From the NCBI GenBank assembly GCA_903813345.2, contig CAIIXF020000005.1, forward strand, positions 37,451,375 through 37,515,374: 64,000 bases of DNA, in the 5' to 3' direction. Below, piece by piece: positions 5,280-63,014 of this stretch. Within the stretch, counting starts at the first letter, position 1. Each line of letters begins with the position of its first letter. The DNA comes from Owenia fusiformis (lineage: Eukaryota; Annelida; Polychaeta; Sabellida; Oweniidae). The notes under the pieces were generated by a model. It ran no database searches and had not been told where the DNA came from. It saw only the letters and a program-made list of their open reading frames with translations. A program made the translations under genes and the position numbers.

Positions 5280-7585
5280 ATGGCAAAGTCAAAGAATCAC
5301 ACCGCACACAACCAGAGTGAGTCAAATTATATTATATCAAATATTTGTTGTAAACACTCATTTTTGAACATTCAGATCTATTTAGAGTTTAATCCCGATC
5401 AACTTCTGTATATGACATCCAATGATTCATATTTGAATTTAAGGTCTCAGAATCTTGCACAGATTAATAAGAATAAGAAATATAAAAACACTTATCTGTT
5501 GTAGTATAACTTTTGACCAATTATTGTTGTTATTTTAGACCGCAAGGATCACAGAAATGGACTTCCAAGGCCCAAGAAGCAACGTTTCCCATCTCTCAAA
5601 GGAGTAAGTATCGTTTCAAGTAAATAACATGGAACACCAAAATAAAATTTTGCGGAAGTCTGTTTTACAAAAGTCTATAAATACGGCAAAAGTACAAACC
5701 TGTTTTTCCTTGAAATAATAAGTCTCTGTTGAAGGGTTAGAATAAACTTTCTCTGACCTATTTACACAATTTATGATATGAAATATCAATACAGTATAAT
5801 ATATCAATTGTTTTGTTCAGTGATATTAGAGAAGACTTAGGCAACACCTATGGTTAAAAACTGGTCTGTTGGTATTGATTTATAATCAAAAAAATAGTCA
5901 GGAGTTTTGATTGCATGATCTCATGATCAAATAAATAATTCACTTATGAAAATATTTATATAACATTGCTCATGACATTAGATGTTTTTTCTGGAGAACA
6001 CAGTTGAAACAATCAATAGAATATGATAAAGTAGGTTGGAAAGTAGGAAAAAGACAAATACTTGGAAATACTTTAATGTTATTAAAATAGGGTGGTAGAG
6101 CATAACATGTATTGGAAAACCTGAAGCAGTAGGATAAAATCTTTCTATGATATATTAAAGCTGAAATAAGAAATGAAGAGGATGGATGACAAATGTTGTG
6201 AGCTGCAACATTATTTTTCTAAACAATCAGATTCACCTTACCAAATATTAAAAAGATCCATGGTGGCCTTTAAAATGGTGTTGTAATTGAAGATGTGCAA
6301 AAAAAGTAAAAAACACACGAAAAGTTAAGAAACAAATTCCAGTAACAATGAATAATGAGCAAATACCTCTTGTAAATAGCCATAAACATTTAGGCATCAT
6401 TTTAGACAAACACCTTAGCTTTGAAGAACACATTAACTCAGTGATTACTAGGTGTAATAAAATGTTAAATCCATTAAAAGCACTCAAATTTTCAGTAAGA
6501 TCAAAACACTTACAGACAATTTACATGGCATTCATTCTCCCACATCTCGAATATGGCAATATTATTTTTGACAGCGCAAATCTAAACCTCTTAGCAAGTT
6601 TAGATAGAGTCCAATATAGAGCGGGTCTTATTGTAAGTGGTTGCATCCAAGGGTCAAACTCTGAGAAGGTGATGGCATGTCTTGGATGGAGATCTTTATC
6701 CAATCGAAGAAAAGAAAAAAAACTAGTTTTTATGTTTGATTTTGTAAATAATTATAAGATGCCTTCATATGTTTCAAATGTTTTTGAACAGTATAAGAAT
6801 CAGGTAACCCACCAAAGACTTCGTCGTAGCAATGATTTTAAGATCCCATTCAAAGCATCTGCTAAACTTAGAAAGTTTACAGCTTTATCCAGTATTAAAT
6901 TATGGGATAATTTACCTGATGAACTGAAACAAGCAAACTCACGCAACTCATTTAAGTATAAAATTAGAACATTTTTGAATGGGAAAAAGAAAGAATTCAC
7001 AACCCCAAGATTAAACCTATCCAGAGATAAAGAAATTGTCTTAAATAAAACGAGATGTGATCTCATTTTTAGGCAGCATCTTTTTACACATAACTTCAAA
7101 AATATTCCAAATGCCAAATGTAAATGTGGTCACTCTACTGAATCAACCAAACACCTATTGCTCCATTGCCCTCTTTTTAACACTCAAAGACTCAATTTTC
7201 ACAGAGAACTAGGGGGACTGCCATCCTTTAATTTAAACTCTTTTAATAATAGAAAACAGGAGGACAGGGTAGACTTTCTACTTTTTGCAGATCCTTCTCT
7301 TGACACAATTACAAATAAAAAGGCTATTGAATTAACAGCCGAGTTTTTACACTCTATTGTCAAGGAAGTTAAATAGTCCAATATTCATTAATTTATACAT
7401 ATATCTCTGACCTGTCTTCATGTTTTCAAGATTATTTTCATGTTCATAAATATGTTTTATATCTATCATTTTTACATTATGACCTATTTTAACTTATATT
7501 GTAACTACTTCAACAGGGCCAATAATGCTTCGGCGTAGGCCCTGTATCTGTTTGTATGATGTATTATGAAATAAAGGAAATATAA

Positions 7586-30571: not shown

Positions 30572-33500
30572 TCATGAGACTTCTTCAAGGTCAAAACCTC
30601 CCTGTGTCTTGGTCGGAGTCATAAAGTACATTTTTGTTTCACAACACGTACACACAACTTCATCTTTACATGTACATTCTTCTGGGGTCCGTGCTCCTGA
30701 CAGGTGCTGCTCAAAATCAAGTAACTGTCCCATGAAGTTGAAGTTCGGTGATATGTTTGGTTTGCACTTTTTCACATAGTCATACGCATCATTGAGAGAT
30801 AGCGACATCTTTGCCATTAGGTAGGCTACCGTCACAGTCACGGAGCGACTGATTCCTGCGAGGCAGTGGACCAAAACACCACTCTTCTTGGCCCTAGCTT
30901 CATCTGAAACACATACAATAAAAACACTGTACATTACATTTTCCCTGTATATATCTTTAAAATGTTGTTTTTAGTTTTCACGGTGAATCCAACACCTTCT
31001 TGTTACATTATAACAGCTAACCACTGATGAGCAACAAGGGGCAACATTTGAGAAAAATCTTGAAATACCAATTTTGATCTGGAGTAGAGTGTTTTAAATG
31101 TAATAATCGCACCCTTGTGACTATAATTATATCTACCTCTGTTTATCACATAGTTTTATTTTTTAAACAGTTGACTTTTTGGGGTATGGATGTGTCAGTG
31201 TACTATGTCTTAGTTAATAAATGATGTTTGGTATTTTATTATTACTAGATATAATTTCTAATAATGTTAGATATTAATTACTGAGTAGGAGTAAGAATTT
31301 TTTTTTTCTATACTGTTATTACTAGCCATCTGACATTGGCTCAGGGAAATTGAGGAAATTAACACAGAGAGTTCTTTGTTTACGTCATGGGCCTTCATTA
31401 GAGCCCATGTTTACGTCATACATTTTGGTTACTTGTTATTGTGTCTGTGCGTCTCAATCCAATTTTCAATCTGCTTACGCTCATAATCACAAACTTCCAT
31501 GATCCATTATTCTTATAAATACAGGTAAAGGTAAGTTTATTGCGTTGGCGTTGACCTTAATGTGAACATTGAACCAATCAATAGGAAGGAGTCTTAGGAA
31601 CACATCATATAAGCCTTGTTATACAACTCTGAATCAATCAGTCTTGATCTAATAAACCTTAAGTTGTAGGGTTTAAGTTACTTGCTAACTTTCTCATTGA
31701 TCTGCCTAGATTTTAAGTTTACTTTAACCATAGTAAAATCATAGTAAAAGACACGCCTGATACTTATGTTTTCTTAAATACAGAACAACAACAATGGCTT
31801 ATCTCAAGTTGATTTTGGCAAATTGGTTCTTTGATTAAAATCAACTATAGTTAACACACAACAAGTCAGTTAGTTCCATATTTAAGATCTATTGAAAAAT
31901 TCAATCCATCTGCCAAGAAAAATAAATGTTATTTTGATAGGAAGTTTATACTAAAGTACTGTACACGTAAAATGTATAACTACTCCTATGTTAAAACTTT
32001 TCTTTTAGAACATGAACCTGTTTTCATGAAAATCTACATTTTGTTTTTGGAGAGTTAAGACTTCCTGTTTTGTCATTAATCTTGTATTGATTTTCAACAT
32101 GGTAGAAAGGGAATAAACATGTACATATATTGATATGCCTAACAAAGTAGGGGGTAAAATCTTAAGATAAATATGCCGTTAACGTGTATTTAGAGATCAA
32201 CATTGATCTACGAACAAATAATGATTACCCAAGAAGGAAATGAAAAATCAACCTAAAATAATATTTCACAAAGACCAGGGTATATTTTTATGTAATAAGG
32301 TGATTGAAGAAATTAAGTTTCTTACAGGTGTGTGGGAAGGGGGATCGATGCTGATGTTCTTTAAAAGTGAAACCTGTATATTGGAACACCTCTCTCAATG
32401 TGAATGATCTTTTCACTCCCTTTTTTGATCTGCCATAGACTTCCATGCTTAAAAACCTTGAAACGGGAACATCTTGCCAATCTGAATACTGTACGCCCGG
32501 TATTATTCGCGTGCGATTAACTTTCGCGCTTTTAGCGATGGTGTTAAAATCGCGAAAAATTATCGTCGCGAAATTGCTAATTAAATCTCCGGGAATTTGT
32601 TTTTACCCGGGGCTCTGATGCATTTCGTCAACTTCTGATCCCTCCATTCCTACGTCTGTAAGAAGAACTACAAAATGCATCTCGTTTTGTGTAAAACGTT
32701 TCGTCTAGTGTTATTGGGCGATAATTGGATGATTTCCACCAACATGTCTATTTTACGTTGGCTAGTCAGGCCAACTACTACCAATGGGCCTAGGCTTAAT
32801 AATGACATCGACGATATTATAGAAACTGAAGTTCAAATTGCTAAAAATAACATGAAGTCCAAGGGTGGAACATATAAAGTGTACAACGACGCAGAAAGGG
32901 CAAACATAGCCCGGCACGCACTTCTGAACTTGTGAAATTAGCGAAATTTAATAGCTGCGAAACCGTGTTTTCGCAAAATTCGTGAAATTAAAGCTCGCGA
33001 ATAATACCGGGCGTACAGTACTCTAAGCTGGTCAGTAGGGTTCGGATAAGAAAGGTTTCACTGTATAATACAAACACATCATGGTCTTGTTTTCTTACCA
33101 ACACAAGTATAATTTTAAATGTTTCTTTGTTTTTAAATACTTGGGGCCTCTTTCTGTGCCTAAAAAGTCATTCAGGCAATTATGTCTTTGGAGAATACTT
33201 TTTTCTTAGACAACCGTGCTAGTGATCAACATCCATTTAGGCAGGTTTTCTACTCATGTGACATGGAATAGATTATGTCTGCACATATAACCAGAATAAA
33301 GGTAAAAAGACAAAGCCTTTGGTATCATTATGGTTAAGTATTATATCACCAGATCAGGTGGGCTATGATGACTGGGATCACATAATAAGAAGAGTGCATA
33401 TGACGTCAAACACACGCATCCAGCCTACGTGGATTAGGCCCATTGAGCCATCTAACCAATATTCAATGTGCCCCTATCAGGATTTTCAATAGAATCACCC

Positions 33501-39500: not shown

Positions 39501-41131
39501 TGTGGAGTTAGGTCATCCAACTGAGTTTGGTCATTGGTACAGTGATGGATAACTTGCCTTGCCATGTTTAGTCTCTCGGTTACATCTATCTATTCACAAT
39601 TCCATTATATGTTAATGAACCATTCACTTATACCTGGCATGTTATATAACCTCAGTGTCAAATATTATCAAATAACAAACATATGCCAAGAAAATGTCAG
39701 GAATCCAAAGGGGCATTATTTGGCAAATATATTTGTGGTAAAAAAAACAGATACATGTACAACAAGACATGTCTAATCTGAACACTACTGAGACTGGGAA
39801 AATGTGTTAGATAACGAGGTGTTCACATTTCAAGGATTCTTATATGGATCAATGGGAGATAACAAAATTGGAACTGAGAAAAGTGTTCACATGGCGATGT
39901 GTTCAATATTCAGATTAGAAGGGTGTTCGGATATACATGTTTTACTGTAGTACCAAAACAACAAACTGCAACTAACTCACCTATAAACTTGATCGCTTGA
40001 GGGAAATGAACAGACAAGTTCTGGGACCAGTGATCGCTAATGGGGATTCTCTTGTACTCAATGAAGTCCTCGTCTTCAAACACGTTTGGTATATTTGGAG
40101 TGACATTAAGTATATATTGAATTCCATGCTTTTTTAAGGTGTCTTTATCCGCAGATGTTTTCGCATTCCCTAAATACAAATATGGTAGCACCTCTACGGG
40201 AAATGTCATCGAGTTCATACCGATTCCACTGTCTGGATTTTCCACCTCAGATATGGTTATATTTTTTAGGCCTAGTATTGATTCATCTTCTTCTCGCATA
40301 TTGTTTGTGCGACAATACTCAGGATAAAACTTGTGAAAAGTTTCAAATCCACCTAAAAATAGTAAAGTAATAAAGATTATGACAAAACGTACAGTCGCAG
40401 GAGCCGAAGCCTTTGGTGTCATAAAATTAAGTCACTTTTAAATTATATGACACTTTCAAAACAGAAGGAATTTGATATTCTTGTGTTAATGTCATCAAGA
40501 AAGCTTATAATGTTTTCTTTAGATTTACATGCTAAAGGTTAACATGGGGAGTTAGTAACTAGAACACATTCAAAATGGCCGACTTCAGCAAGTTAATAGT
40601 ACCAACACAGATGTTATTATATTGTGTTTTGAGACGTTGATTCTTCAAGCTGAATAGTACATCTTAAATCTAATGGAATATTTTAGTTGTCTATTGAAAA
40701 ACTGAATCGATGATTTGTTTACAAATGGGTAAAATGACAGGCTAATGTTTGTTGATATTACCTTCTAAAATTTCGACTCTGCAGCCATCTTCCTTGAGGC
40801 GATGAGCAAGTAGGCAAACTACACTGTTTTGATTCAAGTTACTATCTTTACAATCATCGTAGAGGATGATCTTGTGGGTTTTTGATGAACTTTGGAACTT
40901 CTCCTTGCCATCGTTACTTTGTATGACGGATGATATACTCAAGTTGCCCTTTTTTAGTCGGCGAAGCATCAGTGAAGGAAGAGTAATGTTGATGGCAGAA
41001 TCAACATGGGATTCTGTGTACTCGTTCTGTCCTCGACAATCCAACACTAAAATGTCTCCAATTTCACTTTTAAGCCGGTCAGGACTGCACATCTCAGCCA
41101 TTCTGTTCTCAATGATATCTCGACAAGGCAT
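30572..41131 (-). CDS. DUSP6/7/9-like: Dual-specificity MAP kinase phosphatase, MKP-3 type (DUSP6/7/9-like)
   Basis: It dephosphorylates threonine and tyrosine in the ERK activation loop and provides feedback on RTK/FGF signalling, usually in the cytoplasm. Coding exons on the minus strand are 41131-40762, 40352-39981 and 30903-30572. Both introns are phase 1 with GT/AG ends, and the joined frame gives 357 residues (vertebrate relatives are about 380). Residues 20-125 form the rhodanese-like domain, with the ERK-docking basic cluster [11 protein letters not shown] at 54-64. Residues 175-320 form the phosphatase domain: [14 protein letters not shown], the general acid Asp230 in [11 protein letters not shown], and the active-site loop HCLAGISRS with Cys261 and Arg267. 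All key residues are present, so it should be active. The start codon is the first ATG of the frame and may not be exact. Confidence 0.93.
32366..33063. mobile_element. pogo/Tigger-like MITE split by another element
   Basis: The two halves 32366-32486 and 33021-33063, read together, align with the 26.1 kb copy on the opposite strand: a GTGAAACCTGTATATTGGAA end, TTCACTCCCTTTTTTGATCT, CTTCCATGC, and a final TTCGGATAAGAAAGGTTTCA ending CTGTA. The CGCG-rich element 32489-33018 interrupts it. The host copy is therefore the older of the two. Confidence 0.75.
32489..33018. mobile_element. CGCG-rich TIR element, ~530 bp, TA target
   Basis: The termini are perfect 23-bp inverted repeats (32489-32511 and 32996-33018) starting CTGTACGCCCGGTATTATTC, flanked by TA. 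Sub-terminal TCGCGAAA and TTTCGCG words recur. The interior holds an 86-codon frame (32675-32935, + strand) ending [20 protein letters not shown]. That end resembles a short helix seen near the N-terminus of transposon-linked proteins, but the resemblance is weak and no transposase catalytic motif is present. It lies in the large intron of the phosphatase gene. Confidence 0.82.
33064..38991. other. Phosphatase intron 2, no further feature recognised
   Basis: This part of the 9-kb intron shows no coding frame with family resemblance and no element with clear ends. It includes a G-tract (35.32 kb) and short AT-rich repeats only. Confidence 0.5.
38992..39131. mobile_element. Short CGCG-rich TIR relic related to the 32.5 kb element
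   Basis: The right end reads CGCGAAAATTACCGGCAGTA plus CAG. Its complement, CTGTACTGCCGGTAATTTTC, matches the terminus of the 32.5 kb element in pattern (CTGTAC, two bases, CCGGTA). TATATTTCGCG words are repeated inside. The left end is diverged. Confidence 0.55.
39755..39947. mobile_element. pogo/Tigger-like MITE, diverged copy
   Basis: GTGTTCACATTTCAAGGATT and GAAAAGTGTTCACATGGCGA match the family interior; the right end reads GTGTTCGGATATACATGTTT then TACTG and TA. The left terminus is degraded. It lies just beyond the donor of phosphatase exon 2. Confidence 0.65.
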
Positions 41132-42335
41132 CGATATGAGATTACAAAACTTTATGAGACCAAGTTTGGTCGATTTACAACTCCCAACTCAAAATCGAGA
41201 TTATCGTCAGTTTACTACTCAGCCTATACCGATCAAACCTGTGATATTTTCATCGATTCGATAAGAAAAGTATGTTCTTCTGACGACAAATCTAGTGACT
41301 TTGTACTCCTGTTCGTGAACTACCTAAACAAAGTTGTAAAAGAAGTACTGTTTCACTAACTTTGAGCTTCCATCTTGGAGTGTTGGCGCCGTCTCAATGA
41401 AGTGCTTAGGGGCTACACATCCGGTCATATTGACATGTACACGTGACATGTGCCGACCAATCACCGATCGTATTTTAGATAAACGTCACTTTTAGCCACA
41501 CCCCTTAGTTAATTATCATAATTTATCAATTATATTTATATCATCAACGTAAATGTGAATGAACGGAAAACAAAACAAGATGGTTTGTTTCAATGATGCT
41601 AACAATGAATAAGTATTCGACCGTAATACATGTAATATCCAAATAGATCGAAATCACAAACGAATCACAAAACAAAAGTGCGAGGGTACACTGGCATGTA
41701 GCGGCCCTGATATCGATAAATTCTACACGCAATATAACCCGATTTTAGATGCTTGGTTAAAACTTTACACGAAAAAGCCTCGATATCCGGGCATTTACTC
41801 TTACACTGAACTGAAAATAGCATCGTCTAAACGTGTATGTCTTGGCTTCCGGGAAAGTTTATCAACATTTATACTCAATTGAAAGAGCAGTCGTGCTTAT
41901 ATCGTGTACCAGTTTGATTGTTTTATATGTGTGTGTATTTATAATATGATAGCCTAGTAATACCGTGTCGTTAGAACAAGTGCTAGATATCGAACTGATG
42001 ACCTGAAATTAGATTATTGGACTGATCGCGCATCTGATATTAGATGATTAATTTGCATTGAATCTGATATTAACTTGCAACCCAATACCACAATAAATAC
42101 CATGACTTTACATTAGAATGATAACACGGCCTCATATTCTAATTCATTATACGCCCATTGCAGGCCAAAAATGTTTCAATGTGGATATTGTAATGCACAC
42201 GAGAATACATTCGATTCGTATATATTGATCATACATCAATTGAACATGGAGATTTTCCTGTACACTTTTCCCAAACATGTGGAATAGACTAGATGCGAGT
42301 AGAAATTATCTTGATTTATCCTATGCCAAGTAGGG
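41132..42335. other. Upstream region of the phosphatase gene
   Basis: No coding exon was seen. The first few hundred bases should contain the phosphatase promoter and 5'UTR, but no TATA box or other element could be placed with confidence. Confidence 0.4.
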
Positions 42336-43710: not shown

Positions 43711-43861
43711 ATCCTCTATTTAAGATGTGATATTCGATAGTTTAAAAGTAATATTCGATGGTTTGTAAATTGTTTGCTAAAATATGATATCTTGATCCAC
43801 ATATCAAATATATCATCATGTGATATTCGATCTATATCCTCCTTGCAACCATGGGATAAAG

Positions 43862-44925
43862 AAGAAGGAAATAGAAGACTATTACAAGAGCCAGTCCCTT
43901 TAAAACTAGGAGGAGATGTGATTCCTAGTTGCACCAAACACAAACACCTGGGCTTAGTACTTGATCAAAATCTAAACTTTAATTCACATGTTGACCAACT
44001 CATAGAGAGAGTAATCTCTCTCATGAGACCATTGAAAAAGTTAACTAAAATGCTAAACAGTAAATACCTAGAGAATATATATAATTCATTTATACTACCA
44101 CATTTCGACTACTGTGATACAATATATGATAAGGCATCAACTTCAAAACTATTAACATTGGATAGACTTCATTATCAAGCAGCTTGCCATGTGTCAGGAG
44201 CAATACACGGTTCAAACACATCGAAAGTTTTATCATTACTCAACTGGAAAACGTTAGCTTCCAGGAGAGAAGAACATCTTAAAATTTTTGCTTTCAAGGC
44301 TAGATACCATTGTTTCCCTCCTTTCATTTGTGATTTAGTTAGTTCATACGAGAATATTCCAAATCGGCCCCTAAGACAACCAAGGCATTATAGAATACCC
44401 TTTCCAATCAGTAATTCGTTCAAAAAGTCAACCATTATCAGGGCTATGACCCTGTGGGATGATATACCATATGAGGACAGGAAAGGCCAACCAATATCTA
44501 GATTTAAAAGGTTAGTAAGAGGAAATATGAGCCCTGACTCCAGAGTATCCACTACTAAAATGAATATGACAATGCCAAGGAAAATTGAAATTCTGTTCAA
44601 TAGATTTAGAGCTGGACTGATTCTAAAAGCACATTTATATTCCCATAACTTTGTGACAGTAAATGACCCTTTCTGCGTATGTGGTGACATACAACAAACA
44701 ACGCATCACTTTTTATTAAACTGCCCTCTGCTGCAACAAGAAAGATGCACTCTCCTAGCAGGACTAAAAACCTTAGGATTTTTCAATCGTTTCCAAAATT
44801 TAAACTCTCATGAAAAAATTCAATTTTTATTATTTGGAGACAGAAATCTCACTGTAACTGATAATGAACAAATTATTCATATAGTTAGCCATTACATCTG
44901 CCAGGCTCTTGATATTTTAGATTAA
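43862..44925 (+). pseudogene. LINE ORF2 fragment, C-terminal reverse transcriptase region
   Basis: The frame is open from the junction to TAA at 44925, and its apparent start at 43774 lies in flanking foldback DNA. KHLGLVLDQNLNFNSHVDQL, YNSFILPHFDYCDTIYDKA and RLHYQAACHVSGAIHGS are the thumb-region blocks, and CVCGDIQQTTHHFLLNCPLL is the terminal Cys/His motif. Catalytic RT motifs and endonuclease are missing. Colinear with copy 1, but only about half of the residues in conserved blocks match by eye. Confidence 0.9.
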
Positions 44926-48640: not shown

Positions 48641-49445
48641 ATGGCGCTCTCCTTTACAAGCAACAGTAATATCCGAATATGCCAGCTTGAATACAGAGAC
48701 ATCTTTTTAACTATAGGAAAGTAAGTTCAAGTTGTTCACCCACACTTTGTTTTACCTCTAATAAAAATCAATTTGTTCATTCCAGCGGTCCGCGTAGAAA
48801 TCATCAGGCCGTTGCCAGAGGCCGTAGAAAGTTCCCACGGTGGCTGTATATCGGGCTTACATTGACCTACGTCTGCTGTAGTGTTTTGATGGGTAATGTA
48901 CCTTGGAAACAGTTTTTAGATCAGAGTGCTGTCATATCTTTGCGGACGCAAGATACCAAAGGAACATATATATCACCTGCAAAATCCGACCGTTTTAGAA
49001 ATGGTAGCCATTTTTATGTGTGTTATTTTACGATTTTTGCGATAACCGCAAAAGTAGTAGAGGGATTTTGTAAAATTGGCAGCCATGACTGTTCGATGGG
49101 ATTTGCTACGGCATGGCGTTGCTGTTATCTATAGGTTTTGTGTAGTCTTCATTAGGATACTAAAAAGAATGCCTGAACTGCTGAATTGTATATTGAGGTT
49201 TGTTTCTTTTCTGTATTTTTCATAATTTGCACTAGTTTTTTGTTTGGTAATATCTAAACCCCTTTATACTCGTACACACTAATATCCAATTAGGCGCACA
49301 TCTGCACATAACACAACACAAGTAGTTTTATGTATTGGTACCCTTTTCGTGGTATCTCTGAAGTATCATTTATTGGAGCTGCATGAAAATGACATATCAG
49401 TCACTACAGAGTATATTACTCAGCGTCGGGAGCTATTTGAAAAAG
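48641..49445 (+). CDS. Candidate 5' exons of an unidentified membrane protein
   Basis: Three phase-compatible exons can be read: 48641-48720 (ATGGCGC start, donor AAA|GTAAGT), 48786-48892 (acceptor TTCATTCCAG, donor G|GTAATG) and 49323-49445 (weak acceptor CACAAG or AGTAG three bases later, strong donor AAAAG|GTAAGA). The encoded segment has a basic stretch (RGRRKFPRW) followed by about 30 hydrophobic residues (LYIGLTLTYVCCSVLM, then VLCIGTLFVVSL). It ends with a polar region containing TTEYITQRRELFEK. This resembles a type II signal anchor. No family was recognised and no later exon joins in phase; the exon at 54490 is phase 0 and would need an intermediate exon. Confidence 0.3.
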
Positions 49446-49835: not shown

Positions 49836-50697
49836 CTATTTTCCGTTCCAACCGTAGCTCAGACATTGTCCACATCTATTTTCTCTTGTGCTTGGGCATC
49901 TTAGGTGGTTAGGGCACGACCAGCATCTTGGTGAACACCCGCTTCTGCAGCACCTCGAACCAGAATTATCTGAAACAACAAATACACGTGTAGGAAACCA
50001 GAAAGGTGTCATGAGAGATATGAAATACTCAGATACTGCATATCATTAAAGGCATATTTTGTTATCGTTTACTGAGTATTTGAGATACTAATTAAATCTA
50101 ATAATTATCCTTTGACTAAAATCTGTAGCCTATCACATGGTGGAGTGGTGGGGGGGGGGTAGATGTTGTTTGTGAAGTACAGTACATATCAAACATCAAA
50201 TTGCTCCTTACTTCTTGGTTTGCAACCACACGGCTTCTCGCCAGGGACCCCGCAATCACATCCACCACTTGACAGGGGACACCTAAACGTAGATGGTCGA
50301 CATTGCCAGTTGCCACTGCAGTTACACTGGAAATAAGCGGCTGCAATACAAATAACATTGTTCATATTAACCATTTCATAAGCTTAAATTTCCTTCATAC
50401 AGAACAATATAGTTATCGAAATTGGAGTAAAATACATCTAAAATATAGTGTCCACTTGTGGTGGTGACGCAATTTTGTTTAACATAATCTCTTCATGGTG
50501 TTTAAGGCATTACAAATCAAGCCGACTTTCCCAATCTCCAGACACCCGGTTTTCCCACACAAAATTATCTCGTCAGAGTTTTAATACATTTGTTAATACA
50601 TCTTGAATACTAAAAAATAAAATTATGCTGTTTTTTACTCACCTGATATACAACTTGCAATAGCAAGAAGAACCAAGATTCCGATAATGCTCTTCAT
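49836..50697 (-). CDS. Small secreted cysteine-rich peptide, three exons
   Basis: Minus-strand exons are 50697-50643, 50340-50212 and 49969-49836. Both introns are phase 1 (G|GTGAGT...TTGCAG; A|GTAAGG...TTTCAG) and the joined frame gives 105 residues. Residues 1 to about 18 are a signal peptide (MKSIIGILVLLAIASC). The mature part of about 86 residues has 16 cysteines spaced C-x-C-x5-C-x6-C-x6-C-x-C-x7-C-x-C-x9-CC-x3-C-x3-C-x2-C-x5-C-x7-C-x2-C. It contains motifs such as GGCDCG, PCGCKPR and RCCRSGCSPRC. It is basic and glycine/proline-rich. A TATA box lies upstream. I do not recognise the family; the even cysteine number and phase-1 modules are typical of disulfide-rich secreted peptides. Function is unknown. 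If intron 2 is retained, the frame ends after SKEQFDV. Confidence 0.75.
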
Positions 50698-50755
50698 TTT
50701 TTATTTTTGTTCGCAGTCAATTCATGAACTGATACAAAAATCGTCAAACAACTAC

Positions 50756-50763
50756 TTTTATAC
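50756..50763 (-). promoter_or_regulatory. TATA box of the cysteine-rich peptide gene
   Basis: On the minus strand the sequence reads GTATAAAAGTAG, about 60 bp before the ATG. A start site some 30 bp downstream (near 50728) would leave a short A-rich leader. A strong TATA box is typical of inducible or tissue-restricted secreted-peptide genes. Confidence 0.65.
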
Positions 50764-51098: not shown

Positions 51099-52366
51099 CA
51101 GACTTGCCAACCTAAAATGAAAATTTTTCGGGAGATATAAAAAAAATTGCGGTACTTTAACGGGAGTTTTTTTCCAAATCCGGTAGTTTTTGCGGGAGTT
51201 TTTTGAAAAAAGCGGGAGTTTTTACGGGAGATTTTTGAAAAAACGGTAGTTTTTACGGGAGATTTTTAAAAAAACAAGAGTTTTTGCGGATATTTTGAAA
51301 AAAACGGGAGTTTTTACGGGAGATTTTTTAAAAAAGGTATTTTTCGCGGTAAATTTAAAAAAACGTGACTTTTTTACGGAAGATTTCAGAAAAAACGGGA
51401 GTTTTTGCGGTAGGTTCTGAAAAAACGGGAGTTTTTACGGTAGGTTTTGAAAAAACTGGAGTTTTTGCGGTAGATTTTTAAAAAACGGGAGTTTATACGG
51501 TAGATTTCTGAAAAAACGGGAGTTTTTACGGTAGATTTCTGAAAAACGGGAGTTTTTACGGTAGATTTCGGAAAAACGGGAGTTTTACAGAAGATTTCTG
51601 AAAAAACGGGAGTTTTTACGGTAGATTTTGAAAAAACGAGAGTTTTTACGGTAGATTTTGAAAAAACTGGAGTTTTTACGGTAGATTTTGAAAAAACTGG
51701 AGTTTTTACGGTAGATTTCTGAAAAACGGGAGTTTTTACTTTAGATTTTGAAAAACGGGAGTTTCTACGGAAGATTCTGAAAGAACGGGAGTTTTTACGG
51801 TAGATTTCGGAAAAAACGGGAGTTCTTACGGTAGGTTTCTGAAAAAACGAGTGTTTTTACGGTAGATTTTGAAAAAAACGTGAGTTTTTACGGTAGATTT
51901 CTGAAAAAACGGGAGTTTTTACGGTAGATTTTGAAAACGAATTGATCAAAGCTAAGTAAAATGTATATGTGGCGTTCACTATATGCTAAGGGCAATCTGC
52001 GTGAGGTTCCATTTTTAGGTTCGGTTTTTCGCGCATGAGCATTAAATCCAGCGATTTAATTACGGGAGATTTTAAGGGAGTTATACCAGAAAACGGGAGA
52101 TTTTACGGGAGTTATACCAAGAATACGGGAGATTTTATGGGAGTTATACCAGAAAAATGGGAGATTTTACGGGAGATTTCAGCAAAAATACGGGAGATTT
52201 TACGGCCATATTTTTAAAAAAAATTACGGGAGATTTTAGTAGAAATACGGTACGGGAGTTTACGGGAGTTTTTACGGGAGAAAACAGTACGGGAGTTTGG
52301 TATTTTTTACGGAAAAACAAAAAATTTACGGAGATTCCCGTAAAAAACGGGAGGTTGGCAAGTCTG
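51099..52366. mobile_element. TIR-bounded minisatellite element, 1268 bp
   Basis: CAGACTTGCCAACCT (51099-51113) is exactly inverted at 52352-52366, and both sides are flanked by CATGT (51094-51098, 52367-52371), a 5-bp target duplication. Inside are about 25-30 units of roughly 30 bp close to ACGGGAGTTTTTACGGTAGA plus TTTCTGAAAA (51120-51940). A unique segment of about 110 bp follows, then a second array of ACGGGAGATTTTACGGGAGT units (52060-52350). There is no transposase. Open frames in the array are artefacts of its periodicity. Confidence 0.85.
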
Positions 52367-54973: not shown

Positions 54974-54988
54974 TGAACTTAGACAAAC

Positions 54989-57900
54989 ATGGCGGGTGTG
55001 ATTGAGGGACAAATTAAAGACACACTTACATGTAAAGTCTGCTACCAAGTGTTCAATAATCCTAAAACGCTACCATGTATGCACATGTATTGTTGCGGCT
55101 GCCTTGATAAACTGGCTATCAAGGAATCAGATGGAAATAAAGTGAAATGTCCAGAATGCAGGCAAGTACACGTTGTGCCTGAAAAAGGAGTTGAGGATTT
55201 CAAGGTCAGTTTTACGACTAAGACATTAGTGGAGATTTTCACTGCAGTTGACACAGAAAACACGCCACGGTGTGAAAGATGTAGAGTACAAAAGGACACA
55301 AACGCTGTTTTCAAATGTTTAGAATGCAACAAGGCATTTTGCAAATCCTGCATGAACAATCATGATGAATTCATTACGGGCCATACAATCGTTGATCTTA
55401 CAGGCAATGAGTCTCACGACATGCGGAGGGCCCTCGAGACGGTGAAGGATCGTACGATTAACTGTTCGAAGCACAACATCCCTTTGCAGATTTATTGCAA
55501 GATCGATAGGTGCGCCTTGTGCGCTACTTGTTACGTAATCGATCATTCAGGGCACGATTGTATGGACATAAACCAAGCTGCCCAGGCCAATGTTAAACAA
55601 ATTGGGGAAGTACTAATACACGGTCATAATTTGCTGAAACATTATGAAGCTGCTATACACGATACCCATGAAACAAAAGACGCCATGGAGACAAAGATGG
55701 ATAATGCTGTAGATGAACTGACTAACGATATGAATGCGACAATCCAACACATCCGTGATACATACACACATGATATCAACACTATACAAACGAACAAAGA
55801 CACGTGTACAAAGCAAACGATCGCACACTTGGGGTTTCTGGAACTACAGAAGAGTCTAATTGAGAGCACGATGAACCAACTGTCCACTGTGAAAGAGTAT
55901 GGTCACAGTGCGGAACTTGCTAACATGACTCCGGAGATTGACTCAAAGCTCGAGATATGGAAGAGTGTTCCAGATCTTAGATTTGATTATACAGGTAAGC
56001 TGTTTGGACATTTATGATATTTCACATCTATTCCATGTGCATTTTCTTAGACTTATGGAACTGATACACGGTTTTAATTAAAAAAATGTCGTTGGAATTA
56101 TTGGAGGTATAGACCTTGACATAATGATACAGGATGCCATGTTCCTTAGTTAGGCGCTCGCCGTTCGGCGTCTGTACTAAATGGCAAGTGGTGACATTTT
56201 CCTTGTTTATTTATGTGTAACACTTTGTTTGTCTACACCAATTAGATCTACTCAAAATAGAATTCAATAGTCACATGGAATTTTTAGATTTAGACAACGT
56301 CCTGCGAAGACAAGCTCAAAAAGCACTCAAGCTCGAATGGCAAACATTAGATTTAAAGGAACCAAAGGTGGAAAAAGAAGTTGAGGAAGACACAGATGCA
56401 GATTATGTTAATCCATATGAGGTAAATGACATTGCTCACTTTTTAAAGTTAGTTTCCATGCGATATACAAAAAATAATCGAAATAAATTAATGTTGGATG
56501 GAGGGGGGAGGGGGTGGATGGAGGGGGGGGTGGATGGAGGGGGGAGTTATATGTCTTTACGATGGAACAGATTCACAAGAACTCGTGTATTTGAAAAAAC
56601 TAAACTCAGTACCCCAGTAAGAAATTGGATATTATATCTCTGGAGAATGAAAAATGGGACAATTTTGAGTTATAAGAATAAATTCAAGTAGCATGTCTTA
56701 TCATGTCTTATATACACGTTACTCCCCCCCCCTCCATCCACTCCCCCCCTCCATCCAATATTATTTTATTTCGATTATTTTTTGTATAATGCGTGGAAAC
56801 TAACTTTAAAAAGTGAGCAATGTCATTAGTATTGTGATAATAACGTCCCTTATACCTATTTATTACAGGTCGTGTAGACCATTGTTGCCTGATTTATAGC
56901 AAAAACATTGACTTTTGCACGTTAGTGATGATGCGCCTTTTTAATAGATCTCATATCTTAGAAGCGTATCAGTTCAAAACAAAAATAGTAGAAGACCTAA
57001 CATATTTAGCCATGCACTGCGCCTATTCATTAAGCAATTCAGTTGTATGTTAATTTTCTCTTAAAAGTATAAAACTTCCAAATTTGTTGAGATTTCTTGC
57101 AGAAACCGCCCATTCCCCCCCCCCTCCATCCATTTTGTACGATCACCGGGCGTGCTTTTAGTAATTTCCATATTATAGTAGACGCGATTCCAATTATCAA
57201 TTAGTTATCAATTTTTACTTGATACTTAATGTGAATTCCCAGAACTGCCCATAGTATTGACATATTGAACAGTCATGTAAAAATAAGACTGATCTATAGG
57301 TACCCTACTATCGCCATCTTTAATTTTTACAAATAACAGTGCTACAGTGCCTCGGGATGTCATCGCCTAATTTGGTAAACGCCTAGGTTCAGGTCGTTTT
57401 AGATTAGAACAAGTTTTTTACAATATTTATTTTAAATTCAAATTCTTCCTCTTTTCACATCGAGCCACCACATGCAATGACAATGTCAATCATGCTTCTG
57501 TACGAAATTCGCTAAATATAGGAATACGATCTCAAAGGAAGTTTGACATCCTAAAAAGGCACAGACATCCTGCACTCGGGATGATGGTTTTTCCATTTAA
57601 ATATCACACTTTTAATTAATTTGCACACCCTAGCCCCTGTTCATGTATGAATGTATCTCTACTATAGAATGTAAAATTCGTCTTGTCCAGAGATCAATAT
57701 TTGTTCTGAGGTATTCAGCTTCTGAGAATTTCTGTGTTTAAAGTTCCCTGGTACGTGTAGGTTTTCCCACCTCTTTTGTTTTGTCGTATTGGATTAAGTT
57801 GATACGTATATTCTGAGTATGGTTATTGTGTTTTTCGGACTAAGCAACCACAAGAAAAGGAATACAACATGTGGGGTTCCAACCATGATGATGTAAATAT

Positions 57901-59022
57901 GGCGTCAGATGAGCGTAACGATTCTCGAAACGATCGTGACGTCCGACCCATACTAGCCGACGAACAGCCTCATGGGCCTATCCAATGTCCCGGACCTCCT
58001 GAAATCATCAAAAACACTGTATCTTCATGGCCAGAATCACCCAACAGTACTTCGTTTGAACCAATTCGAAATGCTTCAAGTATTTGCCAATCCCCACCGC
58101 AGGAGCATAGCATAACGGACATTCGTCCAAATCAGGCATCTCCCCACTCGACAACTATTGACTATGGACATTTGGCATCATTTACAAATCCTTCAAGTCA
58201 AATTCCGGCTGCTCTTTTCCAGACTCCCCAAAAACCACCTGACCATATCTCGGGCTACTCGCCACATGATTCACAGGGGTCTTTCTCTGGTATAAGACTA
58301 GGGGAACCAAACCAACGTATGATGCAGGGAGATTTCAACGGGAATCCAAGCTATCAATGTCCTGGCGGCAACATTGGATGGGCTCAACCACAGCCTCCTC
58401 CTGGGTTTCATGGACCAATGCAACCTATACAAACCGTAAGAATTAATTTGTATCAATCGTTTTGACCGAATTGATCGTTTTAGTTTTTTCACTTTATTTA
58501 ATAGAACCTCATTTTTTAAAAGCAGAATCAAAGTTATAGGGATGACAAAATTGCAAGCAACATTCCAATAGATTCTTTTAATATCTCAAATAAATATAAT
58601 ATCTCTCTGTAATCGCATGTAACCACAACTATAGAGAAATGAACATTATATTATAAATAGCTTTAGTTTTACTCAAATAAAGTATGCATTATCATGGGAT
58701 TAATAGAAAATAGACATGACAAGGATTGGCATTTACGATATTGTAAAATTGAGGAACTGTTTTGTTGAGGTTGCTCGCTAGATCTGATACTATAGTATCG
58801 TGAATACTTCATTAGACCGTTTAATTACTTTTTTAGTTCCCAGCTGCACAAGCGTTGCCAACGAGTAGCTCACAACCAGATATGATACAAGAGATGATGG
58901 AACTGATGAAATCACAGGCGGAGAGACAGAAAGAACAGGACGAGAAACAACAGGAGCTTCTCAAACAAATTGAAGAACTGAAACAGTCAAAGAGCCGGGA
59001 CCAACTCCAGTGTATCATATAA
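54989..59022 (+). CDS. TRIM-like RING / two B-box / coiled-coil protein, 3' end truncated by an LTR
   Basis: Probably an E3 ubiquitin ligase. Exons are 54989-55994, 56246-56421, 57845-58435 and 58837-59022, all phase-compatible, giving 652 residues. The RING is C3HC4 at 15-57 (CKVCYQVF...LPCMHMYCCGC...CPEC). A B-box1-like zinc site spans 95-132. A canonical B-box2 uses C159, H162, C170, D173, C178, C181, H186 and H189. Residues about 195-310 are probably coiled coil. Exon 3 encodes a low-complexity Pro/Ser/Gln-rich tail, and exon 4 a second short coil (EMMELMKSQAERQKEQDEKQ). There is no B30.2 or NHL domain. An acceptor (TTTTTTCAG at 54965-54973) before the ATG implies a 5'UTR intron. The last three residues and the stop lie inside a retrotransposon LTR. 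Exons 1 and 2 are secure; the link from exon 2 to exon 3 is phase-supported only. Confidence 0.72.
56423..56836. repeat. Foldback with GGATGGAGGGG tracts at a splice donor
   Basis: The left arm starts inside the donor GAG|GTAAATGACATTGCTCAC and runs through TTTTTAAAGTTAGTTTCCAT to a GGATGGAGGGGGG tract. The right arm (about 56715-56836) is its complement, ending GTGAGCAATGTCATTA. Arms are about 120 bp each and separated by about 170 bp. A further CCCCTCCATCCATT tract occurs at 57.12 kb. The foldback occupies the start of TRIM-like intron 2. Confidence 0.85.
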
Positions 59023-59161
59023 CAAAACAGCATTTACAAGTGTTACAACTTTGAGATTGTTCTATATTCTTTTAAACCGGATGTCGCACATGTATGTATA
59101 TGGTAAAACTCCACGGTTATCAATAAAGGTCTCACCACTAAATACATATAATCATATGACA
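59011..59161 (-). mobile_element. LTR of the Ty3/Gypsy element (3' LTR)
   Basis: On the minus strand the 151-bp segment starts TGTCATATGATTATATG and ends TTATATGATACA, i.e. TG...CA with short inverted ends. It directly follows a purine-rich polypurine tract (59162-59175, AAAAGGGAAGA on the minus strand) and the integrase stop codon. On its plus side it abuts TRIM-like exon 4 (CTCCAG at 59005-59010). No second LTR was found, so ends and length come from terminal motifs, not pairwise comparison. Confidence 0.68.
59122..59127 (+). terminator. AATAAA inside the LTR, usable by the TRIM-like gene
   Basis: A plus-strand AATAAA 100 bp after the exon-4 stop lies within the antisense LTR. It could end the TRIM-like transcript. 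Whether it is used is unknown. Confidence 0.4.
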
Positions 59162-59183: not shown

Positions 59184-60014
59184 TCACAAATCAAGCCTTG
59201 TAGGAGGCTTCCTTAGTCTTTGAGGATATCGTCTTTCTGGCGATACAATTGATGACGGCTGTGCATCAATTACAGAAGGAACAGTTCCTATTGGTTCTAC
59301 AGCAGCCATAGGAGTGTGATATTTGTCTCTAATCAGTGTGTTTACTACAGATGTAGTTACATTGTCAGTTATCGGGTTTTCCACACTTGAATGTCTTGGG
59401 TAATCCACAGTGTTGAATACAGGCAAGTCACTTGGTGGTGATTCAACACTTGGCGTATGTCCAGTTTGCTGTAAATGACGACGATTACGTCTATATAATG
59501 TCTCGCCTTTTTGAACCAGATATGATCGATTACTGGAATCTGGCTGACTTTGAACTACAACAGCCGGATGACTCCAGAGTTTTTCCTGATCACTTTTAAT
59601 TCTCACATAATCACCAGTATTCAGTGGTTTCAGTGGTTTCGCACCATGGCGCCTATTATAGTATTTTGCATATGATGCGTTTGCATGACTGTCTGAAAGC
59701 CGAACTTTGGACTCTATTGGCCAATTAGGCTCAAGATTTTCAGGGAGGGTTGGAAGATTAGTCCTAAGCTCCCTACCCATGAGTAGTTTAGCAGGGGAAA
59801 TCTTTGTTGGGGTTGTGGGTGTACTATGATAACTAAGTAAAGCTAGCCATGGTTCAGTCTGTCTAAGCATTCGTTTAGCAGTCTGTACAGCCCTCTCTGC
59901 CTCTCCATTTGCAGATGGAAAGCGAGGACTACTGGTCATGTGCTTTATGTCATACTGTTCACAGAATACATGAAATTCATGAGAAGAAAATTGCAGGCCA
60001 TTGTCTGATACCAA
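59184..60014 (-). pseudogene. Ty3/Gypsy integrase, C-terminal part
   Basis: VSDNGLQFSSHEF contains the second catalytic Asp of the integrase core, and PSANGEAERAVQTAKRML the catalytic Glu. Downstream are the K02A2.6-style YHSTP and LLMGRELRTNLP motifs, a GDYVRI SH3-like C-terminal domain and a low-complexity tail ending YPQRLRKPPTRLDL. The ATG is internal; upstream codons in this frame continue to about 60.06 kb and are cut off from pol by the frame break. Confidence 0.9.
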
Positions 60015-60090
60015 TACCTCAGGTATGCCATGACGGGCAAAAAGTGCCTTGAGTTTACGGATGATCTCAAATGTAGTAGTTAAGTACGGG

Positions 60091-62376
60091 CTAATTTCTG
60101 AATTTCAATAAATCGCGAGAAATAATCGACAGTAATTTATTCTGTTTAGGTTTCTCAATTTGACATTCAGAGCAAGATTTAACTTTGTCCTGTATTTGTT
60201 CATTTATACTAGGCCACCACACGGACATGCGAGCACGCTCCCTACATTTATTCATACCCAAGTGACCATCATGAATTCTCTCCAGAATTTCAGAACGCAT
60301 ACTTTCGGGGACAACAATACGACTTCCAAAAAGTATCAAATCCTGGACAGTGCTAAGAGAATCACGATACACAAAATATGATTTTGCACACATTTTTACG
60401 CTCGATATACCACTAGGCCACCCATGTATGATATATTGCATTACAACCTGCAACGTATCATCGGAAAGTGTCGCCACACGAATCTTGTCAAGTTTGTCAT
60501 TAGACACTGGCTTGGTTTCCACAACTGACTCAACATATGCTGAAACTTCATTTTCCAATTCATGATCTTCGCGACTTTGTTTTGGAATTGACTTGGATGA
60601 TGCACGTGACAATGAATCTGTTACAATCAGTGATTTCCCTGGGACATGTACAGCCTTAACATTAAATCTCATCAATCTGATAAGGAGACGCTGACACCTT
60701 ACCGGGGCTAAGTCAAGATCTTTACTGTTGATGAGAGGAATCAGAGGTTTATGATCGGTTTCTACAATAACAGTATCCATACCTGTGAGGTATCGACCAA
60801 ATTTCTCACATGACCATGTAATACCCAGACACTCCTTCTCAATCTGTGCGTAGCGCGTTTCACTATCAGACAAAGAACGATGACAAAATGCTACAGGTTT
60901 CCACTGATTTTCACTATGCAACTGCCATAAAGCGCCGGCAATAGCATGACTCGATGCATCTGAGCTAACTCGCGATTTTTTCTGAGGGTCATAATATGCA
61001 AGAACTGGGGCGCTACATAATTTTCTTTTCACTGATTCAAATGCAGACTCCTGAGATGGTCCCCATATCCATTCTGAATCGGATCTCAATAACATGTTCA
61101 TTGGGTGACAAATGTCCGACAAATTGGGCACATACCTTCCCAAATAGTTGATCATTCCTAACATCCTTTTCAATTCTGTTACATTTGTCGGCGGTGCATA
61201 CTCATTTATTGCCTTAACCTTTTCTGGGTCCGGTTTAACACCAAATTCACCGATGACATGACCCAAAAACTTCAATTCCGTTTTCCGAAATTTGCATTTT
61301 GACTTGTTCAAACGTAGACCCGTTTTTCCGATGACTTCCAACACATTTCGGAGATTTCTGTCATGGGAGTCCGTGTCTGGGCCAAAAACGACAATATCGT
61401 CCATGAAGACAGCTACGCCATCTATATCGCGCAACATTTCTGACATTCGCGACTGGAAAATCTCTGGCGCAATTGTGATGCCAAAAGGTACACGACAATA
61501 ACAATACCTACCCCAAGGTGTAATAAAGGTAGTTAACTTTTGACTTTCATCATCTAAAGGCAGTTGCCAAAATGAATTTGACAAATCAAGTGTAGAAAAT
61601 ATACGTGCGTCCTTCAACTTAAATAGCATGTCTTCTAATGTTGGAAGTTGGAACCGCTCACGCGCAATACACGGGTTAAGCTTACGTAAGTCACAACACG
61701 TTCTTATGGCACCCGAGTGCTTCTTTACATTTACCATAGGCGCACACCACTCTGTTGGTTCATTGATTTTACGAATTACTCCTAAATCTTCCATCTTTTC
61801 CAAGTTTTCTTTGACCTGGGGCAATATTGGGAATGGTACTCTACGTGGAACAGGCGCATTATACGGCTTCGCATCCCCAGTAAGCTTAATTTTCACAGGA
61901 GACGTTTTCATGATACCTCCTTCCCCAAACACAGAATCTACAGCTTCAACGCGTTTAACAAGATTCATAGCACTACAGACTGATCTGCCCAACAGGTTAA
62001 CAGTATCTTGTTCAACTACATGTACACGATATTTGTATTCACGACCATTGTACAGAGATGTGGCCATAAAATAGCCTAAAACATGTAACTTACCTCCAGG
62101 TGAATGGAACTGAACAGTTTCCTGACACAAACTTGGCCTCGGCTCAAGACCTTCATAAGTTTTCTCTGATATTACCGTACTATCCGCACCGGTATCTATT
62201 TTAAAACATAGTTTAGATTTTTCGACGGGCAATACAATTTTCCAAGCCGAAATTTCTTCCACAGTGTTTGTTTGTACATGACCAATAAACAACTCTGAAC
62301 CACTGTCATAGTCATTGTCATCGTCAAGGTCATAATCTGTCTGTCTATTTGGTTGGTCTGATTGGTTGCAGGACAA
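60091..62376 (-). pseudogene. Ty3/Gypsy pol: protease, RT, RNase H, integrase zinc finger
   Basis: The 761-codon frame contains an aspartic protease site (DTGADS at 61-66) and reverse transcriptase with catalytic Asp264 (TLDLSNSFW) and FMDD at 324-327. RNase H residues include SSDASSHA around 473, Glu515 and Asp541. An HHCC integrase finger uses H702, H705 (HDGHLG) and C735, C738 (CSEC). It stops after KFRN because an internal deletion removed the start of the integrase core, including its first catalytic Asp, and shifted the frame. All parts up to the zinc finger look intact, so decay is moderate. Confidence 0.92.
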
Positions 62377-62966
62377 CCGCCATCCCTGCTTTTATGCTTA
62401 GTATACCCACAATATTGACAAGGCTTAACAGGGACGAAACGACGTCCCGATGGGGATTTACCAGGTTTGGGCTTAAATTCAGGTTGGGGCTTAGGCTGGT
62501 GTTTTACTGATGGGTTTTCAATTTCACTGTAGTTAGGCTTTCTTGACACTGCATCAACATTCACATTGCAATTCTGACTCTTAACGAGCTCAGATTGGCG
62601 CATTTTTGCCACTACATAATCAAGCTCTAATTTGAACTTATTTTCATTCATTGAGTCCATCTGTAATTTCTCGGACAGTTTACAGTCTGCCATACCTGTG
62701 ACCAGTTGATCTCGAATCTCTTCAGTTGGCTTGTCATATTCACAATGTTCAACCATATCATATAAGGCACGTATGTACGCTTCAGCTGATTCACCAGTTT
62801 CTTGATTCCTTTTACGGAATTTGACACGATTGTTCAACACATTTCTCTTTGGAACGAAGTGACTATCAAATTTTTCCAAAACTTTGGAATATACCTTTTT
62901 GTCATCTGGGTTTTCGAATGACTTCCCCATGCTTATTGATACCAGGTACATGTATAATACTATCAC
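62196..62966 (-). pseudogene. Ty3/Gypsy gag, N-terminally truncated
   Basis: Residues about 10-130 match the capsid region of K02A2.6-type elements (KFDSHFVPKRNVLNNRVKFR; EAYIRALYDMVEHCEYD). A basic linker is followed by a zinc knuckle CQYCGYTKHKSRDGGC with spacing CX2CX4HX6C, two residues longer than the usual CCHC box. The capsid start is lost, and the opening residues (MIVLYMYLVSIS) come largely from sequence at the break. The frame overlaps pol by 181 nt, pol being in the -1 frame, as expected for frameshift expression. Confidence 0.85.
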
Positions 62967-63014
62967 AACTAGAATTGCATTGCATGTGAAAAATATTTCT
63001 TATATTTTTTACAG

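Follow-up and report, generated by a model that had tools for sequence, protein, structure and literature searches.

In a 64,000-nucleotide stretch of Owenia fusiformis DNA (the window; C5:37451375-37515374 in genome coordinates), three short minus-strand segments can be joined into one cysteine-rich reading frame, and this raises the question of whether the segments form a genuine gene and, if they do, what the product would be for. The three exons spliced in phase into 105 codons plus a stop codon, the joined frame ending at 49836, and both introns had GT-AG boundaries and lay in phase 1 (Table 1). The donor of intron 1 follows 50643 (CAG/GTGAGT) and its acceptor precedes 50340 (TTGCAG), and the donor of intron 2 follows 50212 (GAA/GTAAGG) and its acceptor precedes 49969 (TTTCAG). 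A sequence-only reading of this locus had claimed these exon and splice coordinates, the 105-residue in-phase product, phase 1 for both introns and a TATA box at the right distance from the gene. The coordinates and the product stood as claimed, and a paralogue retains exons 2 and 3 together with their splice sites and stop; the intron phases were correct on re-reading of the sequence; and the TATAAA element, starting at 50762, lies at the appropriate distance from a TCAGT initiator. A scan of the window for open segments in which 42 amino acids include 8 or more Cys returned three, two of which are exons 2 and 3, the third lying at 58836-59033. In 40 Markov-1 random sequences equal in length to the window, the same count was zero in 34 and one in the remaining 6.

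Table 1. Features of the peptide gene and of the first exons at the paralogous locus; positions are those of the window unless preceded by C5.
Feature	Position	Strand	Remarks
TATA box TATAAA	50757..50762	-	about 32 bases upstream of the initiator A
Initiator-like TCAGT	50728..50732	-	putative transcription start at A 50730, counted on the sequence
Exon 1, coding part	50643..50697	-	signal peptide MKSIIGILVLLAIASCIS and first base of codon 19
Intron 1	50341..50642	-	GT-AG, phase 1; unalignable at the paralogue locus except for bases flanking the splice sites
Exon 2	50212..50340	-	first module, 8 Cys; paralogous exon C5:37631427-37631555 (+)
Intron 2	49970..50211	-	GT-AG, phase 1; unalignable to paralogue intron 2 except for bases flanking the splice sites
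Exon 3 and stop	49836..49969	-	second module, 8 Cys, short C-terminal tail; paralogous exon C5:37632079-37632203 (+)
Nearest canonical AATAAA 3' of the stop	49369..49374	-	461 bases downstream; candidate only
First exon A	C5:37613325-37613379		47/55 identical to window exon 1; peptide MKSFIGIFILFAIASCIS
First exon B	C5:37615889-37615943		52/55 identical to window exon 1; peptide MKSIIGILILLAIATCIS

A search of the whole genome (498 Mb in 525 contigs) revealed a second copy of the gene about 130 kb away on C5, on the opposite strand, with both mature exons present (Table 1). With the single protein as query and E values up to 10, the search returned the two gene copies and one weak double match, the tool scoring only its best candidates, so that diverged copies may be missed. 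The double match (C10:7343023-7343189; 38%, E 0.87 and 3.95) sits by eye in a short-period tandem repeat and was dropped. Between the window gene and its paralogue, the aligned stretches, which take in the splice sites, were identical at 131 of 156 bases (84%) for exon 2 and at 106 of 134 (79%) for most of exon 3, and the similarity ended near the splice sites, the introns being unalignable. The paralogue retained every one of the 16 mature cysteines, along with the splice sites and the stop. When the single signal-peptide cysteine is added, 17 of 17 Cys codons were retained between the copies, three of them with synonymous changes, and 17 of the 67 aligned non-Cys mature residues differed, the unchanged positions including Trp, Phe and Tyr. 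The sole difference in coding length was an in-frame 9-nt indel (W-N-G) adjoining the conserved stop. For exons 2 and 3 together, the two-sequence comparison gave a dS of 0.60, a dN of 0.13 and a dN/dS of 0.22 (bootstrap 2.5-97.5% range 0.10-0.44), the ratio being 0.23 for exon 2 and 0.21 for exon 3. This comparison, made between two copies within one genome, shows that the mature exons of both copies are kept by purifying selection, and at the level of the codons such a pattern of conservation is characteristic of a translated, disulfide-bonded protein. Because conservation in the second copy is limited to the exons and the introns have diverged, the gene appears real beyond chance, and we consider it nearly certain that the three exons constitute a genuine protein-coding gene.

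Upstream of paralogue exon 2, at 15.5 and 18 kb, we found two candidate signal exons (first exons B and A, respectively). Both end in CAG/GTGAGT, in the correct phase for paralogue exon 2, and searches of the whole genome with DNA and with peptide listed three first exons, the window's own included. The alignment of the first exons extends into the promoter, where TCAGT is present in all three copies and the TATA region reads TATAAAAG in two of the three, the window gene and first exon B, and TATTTAAG in first exon A. Another first-exon candidate, within 11.4 kb upstream of paralogue exon 2, was unconvincing and had a poor donor. Since no Cys-rich segment was found between A and B, these may be alternative starts of one gene, or one of them may be a remnant, perhaps of a third gene. 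We infer the join of paralogue exon 1 to exon 2 across an intron 1 of about 15.5 kb. This presumed intron contains a recent tandem duplication (C5:37617831-37629854, with a unit of about 5.5 kb), of which there are two full copies, with 99.45% identity, and a third that is partial (1.0 kb, 100% identical), and the duplication accounts for part of the presumed intron length. Between window 50643-50697 and C5:37615889-37615943, there was 1 synonymous change in 12.5 sites, compared to 22.3 in 54.2 for the mature exons, the signal exon being too short for a firm difference; the lower figure hints at gene conversion or at DNA-level constraint of exon 1 and its promoter.

The predicted product consists of a signal peptide followed by a mature part of 86 residues with 16 Cys, a seventeenth (C16) lying inside the signal peptide, and cleavage probably occurs after the alanine encoded across the first exon junction. 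The cysteine framework of exon 2 is C-x-C-x5-C-x6-C-x6-C-x-C-x7-C-x-C, and that of exon 3 is CC-x3-C-x3-C-x2-C-x5-C-x7-C-x2-C. The earlier description of a clean signal peptide, of 16 cysteines in about 86 residues, of CXC pairs in the first half and of a CC-x3-C-x3-C-x2-C cluster in the second agrees with our count and with both exon patterns; the signal peptide is typical as judged by inspection, and its exon is conserved in three copies. The mature peptide has 12 Lys or Arg residues and 3 Asp or Glu, and the paralogue has 12 and 1, with computed pI values of 8.96 for the window peptide and 9.16 for the paralogue. Single-sequence AlphaFold models of the exon 2 and exon 3 products, which are weak (mean pLDDT 74.3 and 72.4, respectively), had no helix and were built from short beta strands, of which exon 2 has four and exon 3 one pair, placed terminally. 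The two exons did not appear as duplicates of one module, the BLOSUM62 score of 36 between them being reached by 635 of 2000 shuffles with cysteines fixed and by 752 of 2000 full shuffles. On these features, the product is very probably a secreted, disulfide-rich peptide.

The sequence-only reading had also claimed that the cysteine pattern matches no known family, and this held across the Pfam, NCBIfam, PDB sequence and Foldseek-PDB searches. Neither the whole product nor the separate exon products matched any of 24,736 Pfam families at E values up to 10, in a HMMER search whose filters can drop very weak matches, and NCBIfam likewise gave no match. PDB sequence searches (phmmer/hmmsearch) returned nothing better than E 1.5, the best being LDL-receptor-type chains aligned mainly by their cysteines, and Foldseek against the PDB at E values up to 10 returned no match for either single-sequence exon model, a result of little weight given the quality of the models. 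Patterns derived from exon 2 gave 125 matches in viral contigs, of which none was confirmed, and 133 in prokaryote genomes, of which one was confirmed. The latter, a frame of a bacterial MAG (L008), showed 38% identity over query residues 23-68 with poorly aligned cysteines, and we attribute it to chance. In the literature searched, judged mostly by titles and the starts of abstracts, no description of this peptide was found. The gene may already have a model among the 26,966 genes published for Owenia (PMC9977687).

The surroundings of the gene were surveyed in the window and beyond. Six of the 16 ORFs listed for the window were scanned against Pfam profiles: four gave TRIM-like, dual-specificity phosphatase or rhodanese matches, one gave nothing and one gave a sub-threshold DM9 match. 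The DM9 repeat match lies just downstream of the peptide gene (48691-49131, + strand; E 0.18, 12.2 bits against a cut-off of 26.2). The TRIM-like ORF, with RING and B-box, spans 54983-56014 (Pfam zf-RING_UBOX, E 1.4e-7; B-box, E 4e-7), and two dual-specificity phosphatase matches and one rhodanese match fall at 30572-30967, 39910-40428 and 40742-41185 (- strand), which is consistent with MAP-kinase-phosphatase-like genes. An ORF of repeated KTPVFSKSTV-like units, a little upstream of the peptide gene (51386-51856, - strand), is most likely a minisatellite read in frame. Long frames at 59184-62999 (- strand) contain gag-, protease-, reverse transcriptase- and integrase-like stretches, which we take to be a Gypsy-like LTR retroelement, and by eye the frames at 6291-7376 and 43741-44925 (+ strand) resemble the C-terminal part of non-LTR retroelement reverse transcriptases. 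A dispersed repeat, unrelated to the peptide gene, is common to window 56425-57154 and C5:37636620-37637580, with 79-97% identity in both orientations. Elsewhere in the genome, the erythrocruorin linker C-terminal domain (PF16915) was matched three times within C6:27033687-27048438, and a stop falls inside one of the matched stretches; erythrocruorin linkers have been reported in ten phyla (PMC6400237), and the domain was therefore not taken as specific to annelids. A COX1 search of the genome gave nothing. Of four primers published for Owenia fusiformis syt1 and elav1 (PMC8111721), compared after removal of the 5' adapters from the reverse ones, three had exact matches: both syt1 primers on C11, oriented towards one another at a distance of 32 kb, the forward one within a frame that reads as the synaptotagmin membrane region, and the elav1 reverse primer on C1. 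The elav1 forward primer had no exact match, possibly through an exon junction or a polymorphism, which speaks against the identification; on balance the primers agree with Owenia fusiformis or a very close relative. From the neighbours scanned in the window (6 of the 16 listed ORFs), no hint of the function of the peptide was obtained.

What the peptide does was approached through its form. Our overall reading, which we favor tentatively, is that of a cationic, disulfide-locked secreted peptide acting in defence, and we hold a shade more tentatively that the role would be host defence at an epithelial or mucosal surface. The signal peptide of exon 1 would very probably direct entry into the secretory pathway, and the 16 cysteines would be expected to pair in the endoplasmic reticulum into up to eight disulfides, giving a compact, stable and strongly basic secreted product of about 9.4 kDa. 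In sea water or in mucus the disulfides might protect the peptide from proteases, and its basic surface, together with Trp, Tyr and Phe, might allow binding to anionic microbial envelopes; the TATA/initiator promoter would fit an expression that is strong, confined to certain tissues or inducible. A small, cationic, secreted peptide rich in Cys is a usual form of antimicrobial in annelids, as described for macins and BRICHOS peptides (PMC6780910). Because this form is shared with several annelid antimicrobial peptides, and because of the TATA-initiator promoter, the signal exon and the absence of known relatives, defence seems the likeliest role. Against it, protease inhibitors, toxins and cross-linked structural peptides are just as often cationic and rich in disulfides; the mature region evolves slowly (dN/dS as given above), where arms-race peptides often evolve fast; and we found just two copies that have both mature exons, fewer than antimicrobial families often comprise. 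Of the functions proposed in the sequence-only reading, the antimicrobial, signalling and other disulfide-rich ones remain candidate readings, while a shell-matrix role is ill-suited to a shell-less annelid.

The chief rival to defence would be a structural one, with inhibitor or ligand next. Owenia is a tube-dweller, and the peptide could be a product of epidermal glands that forms disulfide cross-links in the lining of the tube, in the cuticle or in mucus, its many cysteines joining it to other matrix proteins. Besides the tube-dwelling habit, the very high cysteine content, the basic charge and the slow evolution would suit a matrix component. The last common ancestor of annelids has been described as tube-dwelling on account of the position that oweniids occupy (PMC6417257). 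The even number of cysteines per exon (8 and 8), with spacing conserved in both copies, points instead to a defined intramolecular fold; internal repeats, Tyr-rich stretches and long Gly/Ser-rich stretches were absent by inspection, and just two gene copies were found. On balance, we consider such a structural role unlikely, if still worth weighing. The two modules, on separate exons with phase-1 introns, could alternatively make up a secreted protease inhibitor or signalling ligand, in which two small disulfide modules bind one target protein, and the fixed cysteine spacing and the purifying selection on exon 2 and exon 3 alike would agree with this. However, Pfam, whose library includes the common inhibitor and growth-factor domains, gave no match at E values up to 10, the best PDB sequence match was the one at E 1.5, and a reactive-site loop was not evident; we regard this reading as rather unlikely. 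A secreted toxin-like or feeding-deterrent peptide, delivered in mucus, is improbable: signal regions of toxin families are better conserved than their mature parts, and the low synonymous divergence of the signal exon would be in keeping with this, but that exon is too short to make the difference firm, the mature region is under purifying rather than diversifying selection, there are two copies only and a Pfam match is absent. That the exons are a chance assembly of open frames without a transcript is extremely improbable in the face of the exon-bounded conservation, the 17 of 17 Cys codons, the in-frame indel and the conserved splice sites and promoter elements.

Oweniids and magelonids together form the sister group of all other annelids. 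It is possible, but rather doubtful, that these two genes represent a new family of secreted peptides, perhaps restricted to oweniids, in which two unrelated-looking 8-Cys modules adopt a fold absent from the structure databases and serve a specialised role in surface defence or in the tube. Short multi-exon Cys-rich genes without homologues are readily missed or left unnamed by annotation pipelines, and here the reality of such a gene and the selection on it could be established from sequence alone, for a cysteine framework that neither Pfam nor NCBIfam matches. Compared to the earlier reading of the gene, the advance lies in the selected paralogue and in the alternative or duplicated signal exons. 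The finding is a modest, possibly lineage-restricted novelty, 'lineage-restricted' referring only to the absence of Pfam and PDB matches, and it introduces no new kind of system or biology. It concerns a possible lineage-restricted secreted peptide in an annelid with published developmental RNA-seq (PMC9977687).

Among known systems, the macins (theromacin, neuromacin and hydramacin) resemble the window peptide in being annelid, secreted, cationic, Cys-rich and longer than 60 residues, and have four or five disulfides in a CS-alpha-beta knottin fold (PMC6780910). In size and charge the window peptide agrees with them (signal exon by inspection, 86 residues, 12 K/R against 3 D/E). Unlike macins, it has 16 mature cysteines and CXC pairs, fails to match the macin profile in Pfam and shows no helix in its weak exon models. 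The BRICHOS antimicrobial peptides (arenicin, alvinellacin and capitellacin) are likewise annelid, secreted, beta-sheet and cationic, and are described as having a BRICHOS-containing precursor and one or two disulfides (PMC6780910). In contrast, the window peptide has no BRICHOS Pfam match, and all 86 post-signal residues form the Cys-rich part. Metallothioneins, which are cytosolic and nearly without aromatic residues, share with it a high cysteine content and CXC pairs, and the window peptide differs from them in its signal exon, conserved in three copies, and in its Trp, Phe and Tyr. By the features tested, the peptide is not a macin, a BRICHOS peptide or a metallothionein. WAP, granulin, antistasin and VWC-type modules are small and secreted, contain 8-12 Cys and often lie on phase-1 exons; the modules of the window peptide are likewise small, secreted, Cys-rich and encoded on phase-1 exons, but gave no Pfam match at E values up to 10, and their cysteine spacing differs from the spacings typical of those families. 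The cysteine framework thus appears to be a modest novelty, without a match of its own, yet within a broad and well-known kind, the secreted Cys-rich peptides.
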